The translations under genes and the position numbers were made by a program. A stretch of DNA of 64,000 bases, taken from contig JADFDI010000002.1 in the NCBI GenBank assembly GCA_018262985.1, forward strand, positions 62,001 to 126,000, in the 5' to 3' direction. Source of the stretch: Spirochaetota bacterium. Lineage in GTDB: Bacteria; Spirochaetota; Spirochaetia; Treponematales; UBA12059. The first letter of the stretch is position 1. Every line of letters starts with the position of its first letter. Shown here piece by piece: positions 18,853 through 29,175 of this stretch. The notes beneath the pieces are model-generated. The model was not told where the DNA came from and ran no database searches. It saw only the letters and a program-made list of their open reading frames with translations.

Positions 18853-20493
18853 TTAGGCCAACTCCTCGTCGAGCAGCTCCATCGCGCGGCGGCGCGCCTC
18901 CTCCAGGGCCACTTCCGGTTCCGCTTCTCCTCCCGCTCCGAGAGCCGCCGCGAGCGGCAGCAGGGTCGTCCAGAGGTCCCGCGAGGCGGCATCCAGACGC
19001 TTCAGATGGACGGCCGCGGGGGCCGCGGGTCCGTCCAGCGCGGCCAATCCGTCGCGGTAGGCGCGAAGGAAGCGCTCCGGCGTCGTCGACGCGGCTCCTG
19101 CGCCGAAGAAGCCGCGACCGCCGTTTCCACGGGGCTCGGGCGAAGCCAGGTCGAGCCTGACGCCGCGACCCCGCGCCGCGATGACGCGCATCCGGGAACG
19201 CGACGCGAACGATTCCAGCCGCGATCGGTAGGCTTCGAGGGGCCTGGAGACGTAGCGGAAGCCCCGTTCGTCCTCCTCGCGCGCGAGAGGGTCGCTGCGG
19301 TACAGGAAGCCGGCGAACGACGACTCCAGCGGACGGACGCGGGAAGCGCGGTCGTCGAAGTAGCGATGTATGTAGGTTCCGCGCGCGTAGCTCGAACCCG
19401 AGGGATAGGAATAGTCGGCGCCGTACAGCGTCGCGGTCTCGGCGCCGAGCGACTCGGCCAGCGAAAGAGCCGCGAAGGCGACGTTTCCGCCGCTCGTGTC
19501 GATGGCCGGGAACGGCCTCCATTTGGCCGATACGTAGCGGCAGAACGGGTGGCCGGAGGAGACGAATCGGAGGTCGGCGAAGCGCCGGGTCACCGTGGGT
19601 GGCGAGGCCAGGTCGAGGACCAGGGGAATCCGGGCTTGCTCTCCGACGAAATGGTAGTAGCTGATGTGCTGGCAATCGATCGAAATCACCGCGTCGGGTT
19701 CGATGCCCGCGCTTGAAAGGGCCGGAAGGCTCGTATCGGCCGCGATGAGGAATGCCTCGCTTCTGCGATTCCGGATTTCCGCGAGCTGATCCTCGAGCGA
19801 GGGACCTGCGCCGCACACCATCGCCTTCCTGACGGGCGGTAGCGGCTTGTAGGGCCCAGCTGCCCGCGGCAGGTTCCGGATGGTGTTCCTGAACCAGGCC
19901 AGACCGAAATGAGCCTGCACGCTGAAATCGTCACGTATGGTCTTCAGGGCCGATTCGACGCCATGGGCGCAGGCATCGAACCAGGGCCGATCGAGTTCCA
20001 CGCGCGCGCGGAGCGAGGCGGTGACGAGGCCGCCCGACAAGGAAGGAAGGTACAACCCGGGCAGTTCCCTGCCGGCCGCCGCCGGCTCCGGTTCCGCGAG
20101 CAGGGTGAAGCGCGGGTCCGCGAACAGGCGGCTCAGATCCGCGACCTCGATGATGGATCTCACGACGCCCAGGTCCGGTTCGACGCAGAGGAGTCCGGTC
20201 AGTCGGGGATTCCCCAGGAAGGGAAGGATATGCCACGCCGCTCCCAGTCCGTACGAGATTGCGAAAAACGGCGTCGGCGCGTCGGGCGCGGCCCTCTCGC
20301 CGTCCGCCTCGGGATCGTAGAGTCCGTGAAGGCGGACGGCGCGCCCTCCCCGCGTCATCACCGGCACGAGGGCTCCGGATTTAGCCTCGAGGAAGGAGAC
20401 GCCGGGATCGGGAGCCATGCCGGCCAGTTTCCCGGCGATACCTTGATGTCGGCCGGATAGGGCGAGCAGGTTGCGCTCGAGCGTAGGATTCAT
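18853..20493 (-). CDS. DUF115/MptE-like protein (motility accessory factor family)
   Basis: AMVCGAGPSLEDQLAEIRNRRSEAFLIAADTSLPALSSAGIEPDAVISIDCQ, ATLYGADYSYPSGSSYARGTYIHRYF; ATGA overlap with upstream gene. Confidence 0.85.
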   Translation of the reverse strand: MNPTLERNLLALSGRHQGIAGKLAGMAPDPGVSFLEAKSGALVPVMTRGGRAVRLHGLYDPEADGERAAPDAPTPFFAISYGLGAAWHILPFLGNPRLTGLLCVEPDLGVVRSIIEVADLSRLFADPRFTLLAEPEPAAAGRELPGLYLPSLSGGLVTASLRARVELDRPWFDACAHGVESALKTIRDDFSVQAHFGLAWFRNTIRNLPRAAGPYKPLPPVRKAMVCGAGPSLEDQLAEIRNRRSEAFLIAADTSLPALSSAGIEPDAVISIDCQHISYYHFVGEQARIPLVLDLASPPTVTRRFADLRFVSSGHPFCRYVSAKWRPFPAIDTSGGNVAFAALSLAESLGAETATLYGADYSYPSGSSYARGTYIHRYFDDRASRVRPLESSFAGFLYRSDPLAREEDERGFRYVSRPLEAYRSRLESFASRSRMRVIAARGRGVRLDLASPEPRGNGGRGFFGAGAASTTPERFLRAYRDGLAALDGPAAPAAVHLKRLDAASRDLWTTLLPLAAALGAGGEAEPEVALEEARRRAMELLDEELA

Positions 20494-22019
20494 CCGAGCA
20501 GCTCCTCGAGGATTTCCGTCATCGATACCGCGAAGCAGGCGACAGTCGCCGCCGTCAGGGCGGGGGTGGCGGTGCCGCGCGCCCTTTCGGCCAGCCATTC
20601 GGAGGCCCGATCGCCGCAGAACGCCTCGAGTCCCTGTCGCAGCGCTTCGGGAAGGTCCCTGCCCGGAGGCAGACCCTCGAGCCCGTCGGCCAGATCGGAG
20701 GCGAGCCGCTCGAGGATCTCGCGAAGCTTCCGTTCCCTCCCTCCTGCCGACGCGGAAGCGCGATAGGGCCCGCGGATCGGCGAGAAGGGCTGAGCCGGGA
20801 AGCCAAGGAGCGTGCGCGCGTTCGCCATGGTCGTCCGGGGAAGCGAGGCGGGCGAAGCGGGGGATTCGCTCAGGGTCAGGGCGACAGGGCAAGGCAGGCC
20901 GACTCCGGCATAGGCCTCGAAAGCCCTCGATGCGCGCCAGCGGCCGTCCATCCGGGTCGGGTATCCGCTCGCGACGCGCATGAAGGCCTTCGAATGGGCC
21001 GGAGCGATCCGGCTTTTCGAGGCATGGTCGAGCGCGTCGAAAGCGTAGGGGCGTGCATGCTCGCGAAGGTCGTCCGCGGCGAAGTCGACGCCGGCGACCA
21101 CGAGCGAGCTTACGCCCAGCGCCGTCGCGAGCGAGGCCGCGCTGCCCGCGGCGGTTCCGTGCGGCGCCGCGCGGACCGGATCGGCTCCCAGGGCAGCGAG
21201 GAACGGCGCGTCATGGAAGATGCCGAGCTCGACCGGCACGAGGCGTCCGGCCTCCACGACCGAAGGGGGAAGCCTGGCATGGAGCGGAGCAGCGATCGGT
21301 ACCCGCTCGGGGATCCTGAAGTGCAGGAGGTTCCAGGCTCCGGGATCGCTGGCGAACGCCAACTCGGGTATGAAGCCGCGCGTCACGCAAGCATCGGCCG
21401 CCGAGGCGAGGGCCCAGACCCTTATCCGTCCGGCCAGGTCCGCTAGTCCGTCGAGCGCCGCTTCGAGCCCGGGACCCGCCGCGGCGAGCAAAAGGGGGCG
21501 CGTATCCGGCGTGATGGATGAATAGGCCTCGATCCGCAGGAAATTCCTGCACGAATTGAGGAGCCAGCGCCGAGCCCAGAATCGCTCGCTGTTACGCGCG
21601 GCCGACAGGAAGCGAAGCGCCTCGGCGAGCTCGGCGCCGGCCAGCCCGGCGAAAGCGGGGTAGCGCGCCAGGGTCGGACGCCATTCCACGACGAGAATGC
21701 CGCCGTCGAGCCGTCCTTCTAGCGTCCGCACCAGGAAGTCGCGGATTCGCGACGGCGTATCGGGATACCACCGTAGGGCCGAAGACGCTTGTTCGAGTCC
21801 CCTGAAGCGGGGGTCCGCCTGGAGCGATGCTATGGTCGTTCCGGGCCAAAGCCTGTCGGCCGCCACGGCGATCCAATCGGACGCCGGCGCCAACGAGACG
21901 AGCGCCGAGGGTCGACGTCCGCCCGAACGCGCCTCGAGGAAGCGAAGCGCCTCGGCCAGCGGATCGCGGGTCGAATGGAAGCGCGAAGGATCCGCGCGAC
22001 CGCCCGGAGGCTCGATCAA
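20490..22019 (-). CDS. Second, divergent DUF115-like protein
   Basis: PLLLAAAGPGLEAALDGLADLAGRIRVWALASAADACVTRGFIPELAFASDPG, LVVAGVDFAADDLREHARPYAFD; TTG 22019 overlaps upstream TGA (TTGA). Confidence 0.72.
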   Translation of the reverse strand: MIEPPGGRADPSRFHSTRDPLAEALRFLEARSGGRRPSALVSLAPASDWIAVAADRLWPGTTIASLQADPRFRGLEQASSALRWYPDTPSRIRDFLVRTLEGRLDGGILVVEWRPTLARYPAFAGLAGAELAEALRFLSAARNSERFWARRWLLNSCRNFLRIEAYSSITPDTRPLLLAAAGPGLEAALDGLADLAGRIRVWALASAADACVTRGFIPELAFASDPGAWNLLHFRIPERVPIAAPLHARLPPSVVEAGRLVPVELGIFHDAPFLAALGADPVRAAPHGTAAGSAASLATALGVSSLVVAGVDFAADDLREHARPYAFDALDHASKSRIAPAHSKAFMRVASGYPTRMDGRWRASRAFEAYAGVGLPCPVALTLSESPASPASLPRTTMANARTLLGFPAQPFSPIRGPYRASASAGGRERKLREILERLASDLADGLEGLPPGRDLPEALRQGLEAFCGDRASEWLAERARGTATPALTAATVACFAVSMTEILEELLG

Positions 22020-23053
22020 GGCCGCGGTTTCATCGAGCCGAGGAAAGTCTCGATGTATCCCTCGAGCCCTTGCTCGTCCGAGCGGACCGAGAGGAAACCG
22101 AGAATCGGCAATTCGCTCCTGTCGAAACCGCCCAGCGCCCGGGAGAGGCTCGTGGCGAATTGCGCGGCGAGCAATTCGGGGTCGGGGGGGCTGCGGGTCA
22201 GCATGTAGACGGCGAGCCTGGAATCCGGCGACACGCACGCTCCTCCCGTTTCGGAGAGGAGCGAGGAGGCGACCCGGTCGACGAGGGACATGAACGCGTC
22301 CGGTTCGGCGTCGAAGTCCCTCTTCATGGCTTTCCTGATTCCGGAGGCGTCGAAAGACGCGAGGACCAAATGGGAAGCGCCCATCATCCGCATCTTGCGT
22401 GAGAGGTCCCGGCCGAGTTCCGCCGCGGAGCAGCGAAGGCGTTCAGGCATTCCGAGGACGCGCCCGAGGCCAGGGTCGAGCCTGGCGCCGAGGGCCGCGA
22501 AGGCGGCTTCGAGAGTGCCGCTGGGACGCGGTTCGATCGGTCTATCGGAAAGGTACAGGGCTCGGTCCCCGAAACGCAGGGCGTCCAGGGACCGGAATCC
22601 GGACGCGGTCGCGGACGCCAGGCCCAGCCTTAGCGCGTCGAGAGAAGAACCTCCGGCGCGATGCGAGATCGGCCATGCATCGATCATGGCCTGGTCGATG
22701 GACATGCCGCCGCTCGGCGGCAACTTGAATCCGGCTCCGGAGGCGTATCGAAACACAGCGTCGTCGCCGAGGCGCAGGAAGAGTCCCCACGCCCTGGGCG
22801 CGAGCGCTTTCGAGATTTCGCTCGCTATCCGGAAGGCTACCGAGAGGGACGAGCCGTGGATGGTTTCCAGGCGCTTGCCGAAGCCCTCGAGGGAAGCGGG
22901 GCGGACCGCGGGATCCTCATACGTCGATGCGGGACTGAGCGGGCGCTCCGCTGCGGCGCGCGTTCCGGATCGCGGAACGCGCCCTTCATCGGTGGAGGGT
23001 TCCCGTGCAACGGGTCGATCCGGCGCGCTTGGCGCCGGACCCGTCACGGGAGC
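22016..23053 (-). CDS. Hypothetical regulatory/GAF-like protein; probably the 3' part of a frameshifted gene starting at 23154
   Basis: Linker then FGKRLETIHGSSLSVAFRIASEISKALAPRAWGLFLRLGDDAVFRYASGAG; only GTG 23047 available as start, no SD; see finding. Confidence 0.6.
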   Translation of the reverse strand, partial: APVTGPAPSAPDRPVAREPSTDEGRVPRSGTRAAAERPLSPASTYEDPAVRPASLEGFGKRLETIHGSSLSVAFRIASEISKALAPRAWGLFLRLGDDAVFRYASGAGFKLPPSGGMSIDQAMIDAWPISHRAGGSSLDALRLGLASATASGFRSLDALRFGDRALYLSDRPIEPRPSGTLEAAFAALGARLDPGLGRVLGMPERLRCSAAELGRDLSRKMRMMGASHLVLASFDASGIRKAMKRDFDAEPDAFMSLVDRVASSLLSETGGACVSPDSRLAVYMLTRSPPDPELLAAQFATSLSRALGGFDRSELPILGFLSVRSDEQGLEGYIETFLGSMKPRP

Positions 23054-23154
23054 TTTTTTTTTTCGTGCCCGGCTTCGAGAGCCCGCCTGAGCAGTCCGTC
23101 TTTGGCCGGTCGGCCGGGCACGCCGCCCGAGAGGGCTCGTTCGAGGAGGCTCAT
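23046..23154 (-). CDS. Short ORF MSLLERALSGGVPGRPAKDGLLRRALEAGHEKKKLP, probable 5' part of the downstream gene before a -1 shift
   Basis: ATG 23154 right after the upstream stop (TGATATG); ends 8 nt past an A10 tract; stop codon is 23046-23044. Confidence 0.55.
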
Positions 23155-23155
23155 A

Positions 23156-25423
23156 TCACGCCAATCCCAATTCCTCGAACAGGCGCTTGTACGTCTCGAA
23201 GTGTTCCGAACGCGCGAACTCCTCGATCTTGTCGTCCGGCAGCGAGTCGAGCAGCTTGTCGAGGTAGGAAAGCACGTTGCGCACTTCGTCGCGGAGTGGA
23301 TCCTTTTCGTCGGTCCCGATGTCAGCGACGGGAAGCTCCGGCCTTTCGCCTCCGGATCGACCGCCGCCGTCGGGCTTGTATCCGGCGTCGCCTTCCGCCG
23401 CCGCGACCTCGCTCTCGTCGATCTCCGGAAGCTCGACCGATCCCGAAAGCGATTCGAGTTCGGAGATGTCCTCCATGCCCTGGACGAACAGCTTGTCGTC
23501 GAGGGAGGCGGGAACCTGCTCAGGATGCGAGAATCCCTCGATGCCTTCGTCGAGCCCCAGATCCGTCGTCGAGGCGTCCGGCATGGAAGACTCAACGTGA
23601 AGGTTGATCTCGGACTGGTCGGACGCTTCCTCCTCGAGGACGAAGTCGTCGAGGGGCAGCTCGAAATCGGCTCCTTCCTCCACCAGGTCGAGCACGGCTT
23701 CGGACTCCTCCCCTTCGATTTCCGGGATGGTCTCGATGGCGTCCAGGTCCTGTCCGAGCGGAGAGGGCGAATCGGCCGCCGGCACGTCGAAGGGAATATC
23801 CTCGAGCGCGATCTCCCCGCCGCCGTCGGCGTCCTCGAGGACCGGAAGATCCTCTCCGGAACCGAGCAGGTCCGCTTCCTCGGAGATATCGAACTCCCCG
23901 AGGTCGGGTTCGGCGAGCGGGGTGTCTTCGAGGGGCTCCGCGTCCAGTTCGAGCGGCACCTCGCCTTCGAGCGCTTCCTCCAGGTAGCCGGTATCCTCGA
24001 GCGCCGGGGTTATCGGATGGATGCCTTCCTCGAGGATGTTCTCGAGCGCTTTGTCCTGGGACGGTTCGGGTTCGAGCCGGATTTCCTCGATGGCGGGAGG
24101 GGAGGAATAGTCCCCGTCCTCCGGCAGGAGCTCGGACTCGCTCCCCGGCTGGCTCGCGGAGTCGGATACAGCGACGCCCTCTGCGGTCTCCTCGGTGAAA
24201 GCGGCCGTGTTGAGGATGTTGTCGAGCTCATCGCCCGTGAGCGCGATGGTTTCGTCCTCCTCCTCGTCGAAGAAGCCCCCGGCGCGCTCCGCGCGTTCCG
24301 TCGAAACGGAGGCGGCGGGAGCTTCACCGGCGCCCTTGAGCTCGTTGAGCTGGCGCTTCAGGGAGACCAGCTCGCCGCGTATCCCCGCGAGATCCTCGGC
24401 GATGCGCTTGAGGAGGTCGGAGGAATCGGCCTGCGCGATCCGCGAGGGAACGGCCGCCAGATCCCGTTCTACGGCGCCGAGATCGTCGAATGAGGAGTCC
24501 CTCGAAGGACTCTCGTCGAGGACGAGCTCGGGAAGATCGTCGGTGAGCGCGGTAGCCGGGGAGTCGGACGCCGCCGAGGGGAAGGGGGAAGGGGCGGAGC
24601 CGCGGTCGGCCCGGTGTGGATGGCTGGATGGGCCGTCGATGCTCTCGAGGTCGATGTCCACGGTTTCCGTTTCGATCTCGGAGCCCCGATCCGCCATCGA
24701 GTCGGTCCGCGACGCTTCGTCCGTTCCCAGGAAGTCGTCGAACTCCGTAACGGTTTCGAATCCCTTCGAGCCGGATTCTACAGGAACGCCGATATCCTCG
24801 AGGTCGAAGGAAACATCCTCGCCCTCGGAGACCATCGGGCTCGGAATGGTGTCGTCGAACTGGAGGTCGATATCGATCGGCTCGAAGGCATCCTCGGCGC
24901 CGGAGGAACCTTCCGGTTCGGAAGTGGCGCCCGGCCCGGATCCGGAAGCGTCCGCGCCCGGTTCCACCCCGAAGTCCTCGGGGGAGAAAACCTCGAGCTC
25001 GGAATCCTGTCGCGGAGGCGCGGCTCGCGGCCGGCCCGCGTCCTGACGCGGGGCTGGCTCCAGGTCATCGAGGTCCAAGTCGATCACGCCTGAGCCGAGC
25101 TCGGAAAGCTCGGCGGATCCGTCCGCGTCCATTACGCCGTCGGGGGACGAGTCGTCCGGCAGATCCAGGCTGTCGAGCATGCGCTCCTCGTCGGCCGAGA
25201 GGAAACGATCGGCATCAGGATCAAGCCCACCAATTTCAGGCAGGGAACCCGCGTCGTCGATATCAGGCAACACCTCGTCAACCGCATCGCGCTCGATTTC
25301 GAGCTCCTCGACGTCTTCGGGTTCGGATTTCACCCAAACGCCGTACTGCTCGAGCTCGCGATCCGGAGGAAGCTCCGCTTCCGATCCGAGGTGCCGGGAA
25401 TCCTTGCGATCCATGCTCGACAT
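23156..25423 (-). CDS. Large acidic, largely disordered protein with conserved-looking N- and C-terminal segments
   Basis: 755-aa ORF, D/E-rich low complexity; ends LSYLDKLLDSLPDDKIEEFARSEHFETYKRLFEELGLA. Confidence 0.75.
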   Translation of the reverse strand: MSSMDRKDSRHLGSEAELPPDRELEQYGVWVKSEPEDVEELEIERDAVDEVLPDIDDAGSLPEIGGLDPDADRFLSADEERMLDSLDLPDDSSPDGVMDADGSAELSELGSGVIDLDLDDLEPAPRQDAGRPRAAPPRQDSELEVFSPEDFGVEPGADASGSGPGATSEPEGSSGAEDAFEPIDIDLQFDDTIPSPMVSEGEDVSFDLEDIGVPVESGSKGFETVTEFDDFLGTDEASRTDSMADRGSEIETETVDIDLESIDGPSSHPHRADRGSAPSPFPSAASDSPATALTDDLPELVLDESPSRDSSFDDLGAVERDLAAVPSRIAQADSSDLLKRIAEDLAGIRGELVSLKRQLNELKGAGEAPAASVSTERAERAGGFFDEEEDETIALTGDELDNILNTAAFTEETAEGVAVSDSASQPGSESELLPEDGDYSSPPAIEEIRLEPEPSQDKALENILEEGIHPITPALEDTGYLEEALEGEVPLELDAEPLEDTPLAEPDLGEFDISEEADLLGSGEDLPVLEDADGGGEIALEDIPFDVPAADSPSPLGQDLDAIETIPEIEGEESEAVLDLVEEGADFELPLDDFVLEEEASDQSEINLHVESSMPDASTTDLGLDEGIEGFSHPEQVPASLDDKLFVQGMEDISELESLSGSVELPEIDESEVAAAEGDAGYKPDGGGRSGGERPELPVADIGTDEKDPLRDEVRNVLSYLDKLLDSLPDDKIEEFARSEHFETYKRLFEELGLA

Positions 25424-25564: not shown

Positions 25565-26050
25565 ATGAAAGCGCGCCTCGTCTACGCACTCTCCGCGGCC
25601 CTCGCGGTCTATTGCCTGCTCGCGGCGACCTCGGGCGCCTCGGGATTCCGCGCCGCACGCGAGGCGCGGGTCCTCGTCGACCGCATGAACGCGAACATGG
25701 TCGAGCTCGAGACGCGGAACCGCGAGCTCCGCGCCAAGGTCGACTGGATGGAAACCGATCCGGAAGCCCTGCGGCTCGCAGCCCGCGATTCCGGCCTGCT
25801 GGAGCGCGGGGCCTTGCTCATCAGGCTACCGGCGGACGCCGAGCGCGGCGATGCTTGCTCGACCGGCGCTCTCGTGCCGTGGGAACCTTCCGGCGGCATG
25901 GCCGACTCGGACCTCAAGCTGACGGGGCTCGTCCTGGGACTCGCGGTTTTCTTCGTGTCGCTGCTCGTCCCGGATGGCGGCGCGCGGCGCCGCGCGCGGA
26001 ACCGCGCGCCGGACGGCGCGGGCTTCAAGCTCGAGGGAAGACCCGCCTGA
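25565..26050 (+). CDS. FtsB/DivIC-like septum formation initiator protein
   Basis: N-terminal TM, coiled coil ARVLVDRMNANMVELETRNRELRAKVDWMETDPEALRLAARDSGLL. Confidence 0.68.
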   Translation: MKARLVYALSAALAVYCLLAATSGASGFRAAREARVLVDRMNANMVELETRNRELRAKVDWMETDPEALRLAARDSGLLERGALLIRLPADAERGDACSTGALVPWEPSGGMADSDLKLTGLVLGLAVFFVSLLVPDGGARRRARNRAPDGAGFKLEGRPA

Positions 26051-26414
26051 AGAAGCGCTCGATCGCCAACCAGAGCCGAGTCAGCAGGCCGGGAGTCCGG
26101 AGCCGCTCGAGCCGGGCGTAGGCGTCCGCGACCTCCTCGACGGGGACCGGAACGCGTTGCGCGTTCTCCTCAAGCTCGAGCTCGAGGCGGGAGACGCGAT
26201 CCGTCGCGTCGATCATGAGGGCTTCGATGGTGGTCCAGCCGAGTTGACGGGCGGCGGCGAGCCTCCTCCGACCGGATACGAGCACCTTCCGCCTGGTTAT
26301 GACGACCGGATGTAGCTGGCCGTAACGCGCGAGGCTCGCCGACAGGTCATCGATACCGGTCAGTTCCTTGCGAACGCGCTTGCCGACCTTGATCTCGGAA
26401 ATGCGAATCCTCAC
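26025..26414 (-). CDS. Stand-alone ParB/Srx N-terminal domain protein
   Basis: MRIRISEIKVGKRVRKELTGIDDLSASLARYGQLHPVVITRRKVLVSGRRRLAAARQLGW. Confidence 0.85.
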   Translation of the reverse strand: MRIRISEIKVGKRVRKELTGIDDLSASLARYGQLHPVVITRRKVLVSGRRRLAAARQLGWTTIEALMIDATDRVSRLELELEENAQRVPVPVEEVADAYARLERLRTPGLLTRLWLAIERFFRRVFPRA

Positions 26415-26523: not shown

Positions 26524-29175
26524 TCATGGCGAGGAGGCGGCCTCGTCCGCGTTCGGCGTCCCGCCCTCCTCGGGGGGAATGGCCTCTTCCGCCGGGGCCG
26601 CGTCGCCATCATCTTCGTCGGGGTTCGGAGATACGACGGGGAGCGCCGCTTGAGGCGAAGGGGCGGGAGCCGATTCACCTTCGCTTCCGGTCGAGGGCAG
26701 TCCCGATCCGAGTCCGCCGAGCAAGGCCTCCAGGTCGAGTCCGAGGTCGATGGTCGAATCGATATCGATGCCCGAAGGGAACAGGGTCGGATCGATGGGA
26801 GGGGAGTTGAATCCGCCGCTCGCGCCGTGCACGTCGCAGAAGCGGTCGGGCTGGGTGCCGGCGAGGAAGCTCAGCGTTATCTGGCCGTCCGTGCAGGCTT
26901 CCGTGGGCAACAGGCCCGAAACGGCGCAGACCGTGGCGCTGACCAGGCCGGTCTGCGGCTTCGCGAAGGCGCGGGGAGGGAGCCCCTCGTGGATTTCCTT
27001 CATGTAGTCCGCCCAGACGTAGCGGGCGATCGTCTCGCCGGTCTGGGCGACGCCGAGGGAGTTGCCTCGGCGGTCGAAGCCGAACCAGGTGGCCGTGGCC
27101 AGGTAGGGCGAGTAGCCGATGACCCAGGCGTCCTCCCAGTTCTGCGTCGTGCCGGTCTTGCCGGCCAGCGGTATCGTGTACTCGCTGCCGTCCGGGTTCC
27201 TGTAGGTCAGGTACTGGCCCTTGTCCGTCGCGCCGCGCAGCGTACCGTACGCCGTGACCATCGAAAGCAGGTCGGTCATGATGGCCGCGTTCTGCGGGCT
27301 GACGACCTGGATGGCGTCGCCGCGACGCTTCTGGTCGGCGCGAAGGTCCTTTTCCGGCTCGAGGATGATCTTGCCGCTCCGGTCCTCGACATAGGTTATG
27401 GCGATCGGGTCGACGGCGCGCCCCTGGTTCCCGAAGACGCTGTAAGCCCGCGTCATCTGCAGCGGCGTGACGCCGATGACCCCGAGCGCGAGCGGATAGT
27501 AACGGGGGAAGGTCTGCCGCTTCTCGGCGGGGTCTGTGATGCCGAGGAGCGCTCCCGCGCGGTCGATGACCGGGTCGAACCCGACCGCGTCGAGCGTGCG
27601 AACGGCCGGTATGTTGAGCGAGAGCGAGAGCGCCTTCCAGAGCAGGATCGGGCCGTAATAGGTGCCGGAGTAGTTGCGCGGAATGTATTCGGTGCCGTCG
27701 GCGTTGTAGAAGACGACGGGCTCGTCGTAGATCAGCGTCGCCATGGTCGACTTGCGCGCGTCTATCGCCGCCGAGTAGAGGAAGGGCTTGAACGACGAAC
27801 CCGGCATCAGCTTGGCCTGGGTCGCCCGTATGTACTGGCTCGCCTGCGTGTACTTGGAGCCGCCCACCAAGGCCTTGATATGGCCCGTATCCAGCTCGAG
27901 CGTCACGAGGGCGCCCTCGACCGTCCCCTTCTCGACCTCCTTGTTGAGTTCGGCGTAGCTGACGTCGGTGGCGCGCTTGAGCTCGGCGAGGCCGAAGAGC
28001 ATCGCGGCGGCGTCGATGACCGGGTTCACGCGGTAGTTGTAGTAGTCGAGCGCGCGGCTGCGGATCTCGGTTTCGCCGGCGAACCACTCCGAGAATCCGA
28101 AGCTCAGGCCCACGAGCTCTACGAGCGGCACGTAGAACGAGTCCGCCTCCCGGAGGCGGAGCGAGCTCGAGGCGAGGAATTCGCGGTTCGCGAGCTCGAT
28201 GCCGCGCTTCATGTAGCGGTCGGCGGCCTTCTGGAAATCGAGGTCGAGGGTCGTGTGGACGGTAAGCCCGTCCTTGTACAGGTCGATCGAACCGTAGAGC
28301 AGGTCGCCGAGGGCCCGGTGCACGTACTCGCTGAACCAGGGCGCCTCGTCGGAGCGGGAGAAGAAGGCGCTCGTCGAGGCGCGGGTGTAGTCGAAATTGT
28401 CCCAGTAGTCGTCGAACGAGGCCTGCGCTTCGGCCTCGGTGGCGTATCCCGCCTCCACCATCGCGCTGAGCACCGCCCTCGACCGGTCCCTGGATCGGTT
28501 GGGGAAGTCGATGGGGTTGTAGGAATAGGGACTCGACAGGGTGACCACGAGGATGGCCGACTCGGCGAGGGTGGCCTCGCGCGCGGAATGGCCGAAGTAG
28601 AATTTGCTGGCGGCCTCGAATCCGTAGACGCCCGGTCCCATGGCCATGCGGTTCAGGTAGAGTTCGAGGATCTCTTCCTTGGAGTAGCGGCGCTCGAGCT
28701 GGAAGGCCCACCAGAGCTCCACGAGCTTGCGCTTGAGGCTGATGTCCGAGCGGTCCGCGTAAAGGGTGCCCGCGAGCTGCTGGGTGATCGTGGAGCCGCC
28801 GCCGAGGTTGCGGCCGATAAGGCGGCCCACCACCGCGCGGACGATGCTCTTGACGGTGAATCCGCGATGCGTCCAGAACCGGTCGTCCTCGCGGGTGATC
28901 AAGGCGTCGACCAGATGCCTGGGCAAGTCCTTTATCGCGATGAGCTCGCGCTTCTCCTCGGAATAGAACTCCGTGATGAGGCGGCCCTTGGAATCCAGTA
29001 TCCGCGAGGGAAGGGCCGGGTCGAGCTCCGTGAAGTTCTCGATGTTGATAGTGTTGACGGTCGCGGCGATCGCGACGCCGGCCCCTATCCCCGCGAGGAG
29101 GAGGATTCCGAGCGAGGCGTAGACGACGACGAGGAAGGCGCTCGGGCGCTTCCCGGCATGCTCCGTGGAGACCAT
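26524..29175 (-). CDS. Penicillin-binding protein 1A (glycosyltransferase/transpeptidase)
   Basis: GT51 EDDRFWTHRGFTVKSIVRA, GGSTITQQLA; transpeptidase PGSSFKPFLYSAA, GKTGTTQNWEDAW. Confidence 0.94.
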   Translation of the reverse strand: MVSTEHAGKRPSAFLVVVYASLGILLLAGIGAGVAIAATVNTINIENFTELDPALPSRILDSKGRLITEFYSEEKRELIAIKDLPRHLVDALITREDDRFWTHRGFTVKSIVRAVVGRLIGRNLGGGSTITQQLAGTLYADRSDISLKRKLVELWWAFQLERRYSKEEILELYLNRMAMGPGVYGFEAASKFYFGHSAREATLAESAILVVTLSSPYSYNPIDFPNRSRDRSRAVLSAMVEAGYATEAEAQASFDDYWDNFDYTRASTSAFFSRSDEAPWFSEYVHRALGDLLYGSIDLYKDGLTVHTTLDLDFQKAADRYMKRGIELANREFLASSSLRLREADSFYVPLVELVGLSFGFSEWFAGETEIRSRALDYYNYRVNPVIDAAAMLFGLAELKRATDVSYAELNKEVEKGTVEGALVTLELDTGHIKALVGGSKYTQASQYIRATQAKLMPGSSFKPFLYSAAIDARKSTMATLIYDEPVVFYNADGTEYIPRNYSGTYYGPILLWKALSLSLNIPAVRTLDAVGFDPVIDRAGALLGITDPAEKRQTFPRYYPLALGVIGVTPLQMTRAYSVFGNQGRAVDPIAITYVEDRSGKIILEPEKDLRADQKRRGDAIQVVSPQNAAIMTDLLSMVTAYGTLRGATDKGQYLTYRNPDGSEYTIPLAGKTGTTQNWEDAWVIGYSPYLATATWFGFDRRGNSLGVAQTGETIARYVWADYMKEIHEGLPPRAFAKPQTGLVSATVCAVSGLLPTEACTDGQITLSFLAGTQPDRFCDVHGASGGFNSPPIDPTLFPSGIDIDSTIDLGLDLEALLGGLGSGLPSTGSEGESAPAPSPQAALPVVSPNPDEDDGDAAPAEEAIPPEEGGTPNADEAASSP

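Follow-up and report, generated by a model that had tools for sequence, protein, structure and literature searches.

A conserved frame break at a homopolymeric A tract in a gene of Spirochaetia suggests programmed transcriptional slippage

Introduction

The signal for −1 ribosomal frameshifting in dnaX of Escherichia coli is the heptamer A_AAA_AAG together with a stem-loop. To our knowledge, few non-mobile chromosomal genes carry a homopolymer frameshift that is conserved over a wide taxonomic range. RNA polymerase can also shift the frame. In dnaX of Thermus thermophilus, transcriptional slippage at A9 yields both gamma and tau (PMC1088944, PMC5009743), and A10 in dnaX of other bacteria has been ascribed to the same process by Antonov et al., who also hold that a mixed direction of shift among orthologues points to transcription rather than to the ribosome (PMC3711429). 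In mxiE of Shigella, the run that causes slippage consists of Us (PMC1088944). The closest precedent is tssM1 of Citrobacter rodentium, where added As at an A11 run restore the frame (about 20-25%), as was experimentally proven, and where both protein forms and their ratio are needed (PMC4256274). In tssM3, the orthologue of Yersinia pseudotuberculosis, the template is in frame and slippage produces the short form (PMC4256274).

Here, we analyse a gene in a 64,000-nucleotide stretch of DNA from a Spirochaetota bacterium (the window) that is interrupted by a frame break at an A10 tract. Like tssM, it lies on the chromosome and has a long A tract ahead of a premature stop, where slippage would give the full-length protein. 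Yet, the short form of tssM is a large protein and both of its forms are proven, whereas the short product here would be a peptide of tens of residues, known from sequence; the spirochaete gene is also unrelated and spread over several families of a class. The likeness to dnaX of Thermus lies in the homopolymer and in two proteins per gene, and dnaX of the window's genome also carries A10; but in Thermus the long form is what the template specifies, and slippage shortens it, while the spirochaete gene would need slippage for the long form. As in mxiE, two open reading frames would be joined by an added base into a longer product, although the run in mxiE is of U rather than A and the gene is unrelated. 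We know of no class-wide conservation of mxiE slippage. The heptamer and downstream hairpin of E. coli dnaX are both present at the window site, which differs by its longer run, the lack of an upstream Shine-Dalgarno-like element, a hairpin that is not general and an inconstant direction of shift. The gene appears to be a new one for a known kind of recoding, and no prior report of it was found in the open-access literature searched, whose coverage leaves out most subscription journals. If our reading is right, it works like tssM1 of C. rodentium, in an unrelated gene and over a wider range.

Results

A short head and a long body in different frames

The genes of the locus lie on the minus strand. 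The upstream gene (23156..25423) encodes an acidic protein of 755 aa that matched no family in a Pfam search; its conserved last 50 residues served as the synteny anchor in all comparisons. One base past its stop, ATG 23154 opens a zero-frame head of 36 aa (23044..23154) that reads MSLLERALSGGVPGRPAKDGLLRRALEAGHEKKKLP, contains two LL-x-[KR]-A motifs and ends at the stop codon 23046-23044; re-reading the sequence gave exactly the head described in a first-pass annotation of this DNA. The same is true of the A10 tract (23054..23063), read GAA AAA AAA AAG with A_AAA_AAG in frame. The −1 frame holds the body (22016..23053; 343 aa counted from GTG 23047) and is open past the tract down to 22016, so that one added A suffices to make the 379-aa head-body fusion that had been proposed. 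As also noted then, no Shine-Dalgarno-like sequence accompanies GTG 23047. An Rfam search of the window returned no match.

Directly 3' of the body lies a tandem pair of MptE-like genes (PF01973), one of which weakly resembles the flagellin modification protein PseD. The nearer (20490..22238, minus strand) matches PF01973 below the gathering score and its real start is probably near 22020; the start of the second (18853..20892, minus strand) is uncertain. On the other side, a ParB-like protein of 129 aa (26025-26414) is encoded between the operon and a penicillin-binding-protein-like ORF (26524-29175).

The A10 tract is out of keeping with its surroundings

The first-pass annotation had called the A10 run rare for such GC-rich DNA, and this holds. 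The window has 69% GC, neighbouring genes use 52 AAG and 6 AAA codons for lysine, and given the residues E-K-K this codon use makes GAA AAA AAA an event of probability about 0.004. The assembly (3.44 Mb in 22 contigs; G000) has two A10 runs, one at this junction and the other in dnaX. Counted by hand, runs of 7, 8, 9 and 10 number about 50, 17, 3 and 2 among the first hundred A7 matches listed. Two A10 runs are thus not improbable as a number, and the bare count per genome was set aside as weak evidence; the weight lies on the positions of these runs and on their conservation. Among the family's assemblies, the junction A10 is the sole A10 in four (G005, G007, G018, G019), and the sole other A10 is in dnaX in three (G000, G008, G010); some of these assemblies are incomplete.

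The frame break is conserved in the family

The anchor was present in 20 of the 23 genomes of the window's family, and the next ORF was readable in 19; a relaxed anchor pattern recovers all family loci but one (L027). Every readable genome has A9 or A10 at the junction, namely A10 in 17 and A9 in two (L013, L026). In 18 of the 19, many of them GC-rich, the body does not share the frame of the head. The exception (L014, genome G008), whose A10 is phased differently, reads from head to body without a break; a slip in this genome would cut its protein short, not complete it. Within the window's genus, the A10 and the identical break are kept in all three species while body identity to the window's body falls to 49-62%; outside the genus this identity is 9-20% (about 15%) and the tract is still kept. 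The dN/dS of the body within the genus is 0.31-0.44, showing that the body is translated and under constraint.

Metagenome assemblies, which make up most of the named genomes, can miscount a homopolymer by one base, and the two A9 genomes of the family are many-contig drafts that may each contain such an error. That 17 family genomes share A10 argues against a general miscount. An assembly or indel error, one of the explanations first put forward for the split, is ruled out since the break recurs in 18 of 19 family genomes and in 13 others.

The unsplit gene and the recurrence of the break

Across the rest of the order, the anchor was found in 273 of 296 genomes. Among 40 loci retrieved from other families, 33 show a clear single ORF, head plus body, beside the anchor; an A run of at least 9 is present in just one of the 33 (L126, A11). 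These 33 homologues do encode the fused protein in one frame, as had been asked of them, whereas those inside the family are split in 18 of 19 cases. By its motifs, the head of the split genomes is also the head of the unsplit ones. The gene thus very probably made the full-length fusion originally.

A scan of named genomes and a phylum-wide search found tract and split together in 13 genomes beyond the family (L166-L169, L171, L179, L196, L198, L200, L218, L258, L261, L268). Among them is a complete chromosome, that of Brucepastera parasyntrophica RmG11 (L179), with A9; the body ORF there is short, giving a fusion of 128 aa, and may carry damage farther downstream. Seven genomes retain the tract in frame, at A10-A12 (L014, L126, L161, L188, L260, L262, L270). 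Altogether, the tract is carried by 38 genomes (29 A10, 4 A9, 2 A11, 3 A12). The 31 split ones all have A9-A12 at the junction, and their frame would be restored by one added A in 29 and by one lost A in two, the A9 genomes of the family.

Structure around the tract

A stem-loop on the minus strand (23001..23051) starts 2 nt past the A10 tract. The first-pass annotation had counted 19 pairs; by folding, the hairpin is real and has 7+5+8 = 20 pairs, a stability of −36 kcal/mol and a z of −3.8, with none of 200 shuffles as stable. Compared among relatives, the window's family has an excess of structure immediately 3' of the tract (mean z −1.3 ± 0.3, with values of about 0 elsewhere); the signal is weak in the other split genomes (−0.4 ± 0.3) and near 0 at dnaX sites. 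On the 5' side, where a nascent-RNA hairpin could form, the mean z in the family is about −0.75, a weak signal for which we dropped the idea of a general role. The distance from tract to structure varies among relatives. On the plus strand, the hairpin followed by T10 had been likened to an intrinsic terminator; a consensus scan requiring an uninterrupted stem and a T run called no site, and with the variable spacing a functional terminator is not supported.

Predicted nature of body and head

The body has no Pfam match and only one, meaningless and weak, in NCBIfam, and its profile matched none of the sequences of solved structures. An AlphaFold2 model built from 25 window and locus sequences (mean pLDDT 81, pTM 0.76) predicts a disordered start, a GAF-like alpha/beta domain and a second alpha/beta domain, in that order. 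In Foldseek, diguanylate cyclases that are GAF- or phytochrome-linked lead the PDB matches (best E 1.6e-4); with low global TM-scores (about 0.27-0.35), the resemblance is one of domains only. The predicted fold of the body is hence GAF-like plus GGDEF-like. Read by eye, the aligned body sequences lack the GGDEF signature, which makes a catalytic role unlikely.

Heads in relatives span 25-67 residues. Most read MGLLxKA, part of them have a second motif GL[LF]xxA, and 35 of 112 heads contain both motifs, where shuffles would give 3.4. As a guess, the head might be a docking or amphipathic motif.

Discussion

We consider it likely that the frameshift at this homopolymeric A tract is programmed and conserved, with RNA polymerase most probably the enzyme that slips. 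Polymerase slipping on A10 would produce a mixed mRNA population. Translation of ten-A transcripts would end after the 36-residue head peptide, whereas transcripts of eleven (or eight) As would join head to body in a full-length GAF/GGDEF-like protein, of 379 aa here. The ratio of the products would then be set by the tract and not by a regulator. From the comparison of genomes we infer that both products are made, that RNA polymerase does the slipping and that the ratio matters, which agrees with the first-pass suggestion that slippage controls expression through a 36-aa and a 379-aa product. Features used to recognise programmed transcriptional slippage (PTR) point the same way: the homopolymer expected at the junction (about 8-9 or more A/T) is A9-A12 in the 31 split genomes, the frame transition is conserved across species (18 of 19 in the family and 13 others) and the direction of shift is mixed, the opposite direction resting on two draft assemblies.

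Between polymerase and ribosome, a choice that the first-pass annotation left open, the evidence leans to the polymerase. A −1 ribosomal frameshift at A_AAA_AAG like that of E. coli dnaX, with the hairpin as its stimulator, would also give the 379-aa protein, alone or in addition to slippage. The in-frame heptamer fits the pattern X_XXY_YYZ, the 20-pair hairpin sits 2 nt behind it, exactly where a ribosomal stimulator would be, and structure is enriched at this place in the family. Moreover, 29 of the 31 split genomes have the body in the −1 frame and need the one shift that a −1 ribosomal event can also provide. These points speak against a transcriptional origin. Yet, with ten As where a ribosomal heptamer needs six, the run exceeds what any such site requires, and the tract bases 5' of A_AAA_AAG are kept though no ribosomal site needs them. 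Several orthologues replace AAG by AAC or AAT, we saw by eye no Shine-Dalgarno-like stimulator before the heptamer, and the structure signal is weak outside the family. The restoring shift also differs between orthologues (one added A in 29, one lost A in two A9 genomes, seven in frame), and dnaX of the same genome carries A10 with stops within 5-10 codons in both other frames and no hairpin; both observations favour transcription. A hairpin 3' of the tract would not yet be made while the polymerase sits on the tract, and so could not itself stimulate the slip. On balance, we regard a ribosomal mechanism as unlikely. We give a similarly low probability to slippage that is real but merely tolerated, an account that would be transcriptional too, so that the alternatives are not mutually exclusive. 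A-tract slippage could be a defect: long A runs would appear in a linker rich in lysine, indels in them would be masked by the slipping polymerase, the frame would drift and the short product would have no role. That relatives are in frame, need an added A or need a lost A, and that the body evolves fast (its low identity outside the genus), is what one would expect of it. But lysine nearby is AAG about nine times in ten, so that an unselected tract should decay, and A10 is instead kept in 17 of 19 family genomes, in four as the sole A10.

Two further explanations, both raised in the first-pass annotation, fare worse. Independent translation of the body could start by reinitiation at GTG 23047, since this codon and the stop of the head overlap (GTGA); the sister species offers a parallel with ATGA. 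Such an overlap is found only in these two among the split family genomes and is absent in the third species of the genus, the GTG lacks a Shine-Dalgarno-like sequence, and in 7 of the 28 tabulated split genomes (L012, L017, L024, L025, L166, L168, L198) the body frame lacks any ATG, GTG or TTG over the first 180 nt past the tract, so that independent initiation would cost them much of the first domain. Start-stop coupling as the source of the body protein is therefore very improbable, though some other split genomes have possible internal body-frame starts where extra initiation may occur. Phase variation, in which replication slippage would turn the tract into an ON/OFF switch (A8 or A11), might be suspected from a homopolymer at a frame junction that occurs as both A9 and A10. 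Yet, 17 of 19 family tracts are exactly A10, and no family genome with the usual phase has an in-frame length, L014 being in frame through its flanking sequence. All 18 of the others are out of frame, with a chance of (2/3)^18, about 0.0007, if frames are equally likely and genomes are treated as independent. Pfam and NCBIfam searches of the gene also found no surface-protein feature. We take a switch of this kind to be extremely unlikely.

If programmed slippage at the tract is the right reading, standard annotation is likely to call the gene broken, or to mis-start it, in every split genome. The orthologues form a natural series (in frame, needing an added A, needing a lost A, without tract) for asking what sets selected slippage apart from slippage that is only tolerated.

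One might speculate further that Spirochaetia use RNA polymerase slippage at A10 as a standing expression device, in the GAF/GGDEF-like gene of several families, in dnaX of several genera and in ftsK of some, with the head as a regulatory peptide competing with the full-length protein for a partner; this broader proposal is tentative and in our view doubtful. Some A10 runs look like dispersed repeats rather than genes, such as those near translations of the type SLTNIHHGGTERRG or HRVTETQRATG (L084, L081). In dnaX, exactly A10 is found in four genera of the window's family (L031, L032, L033 (window's genus), L034-L036, L038, L044, L048), and at a different place in L043. At the sites of the four genera, stops follow 4-5 codons after an added A and 5-10 codons after a lost A, and the spirochaete dnaX A10 is a probable tau/gamma slippage site. 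Three family genomes (L288, L289, L297; also L097, L106) carry A10 or A11 in the linker of ftsK, about 90-110 residues ahead of the motor; both other frames stop within 4-9 codons, and slippage there could yield FtsK without its motor.
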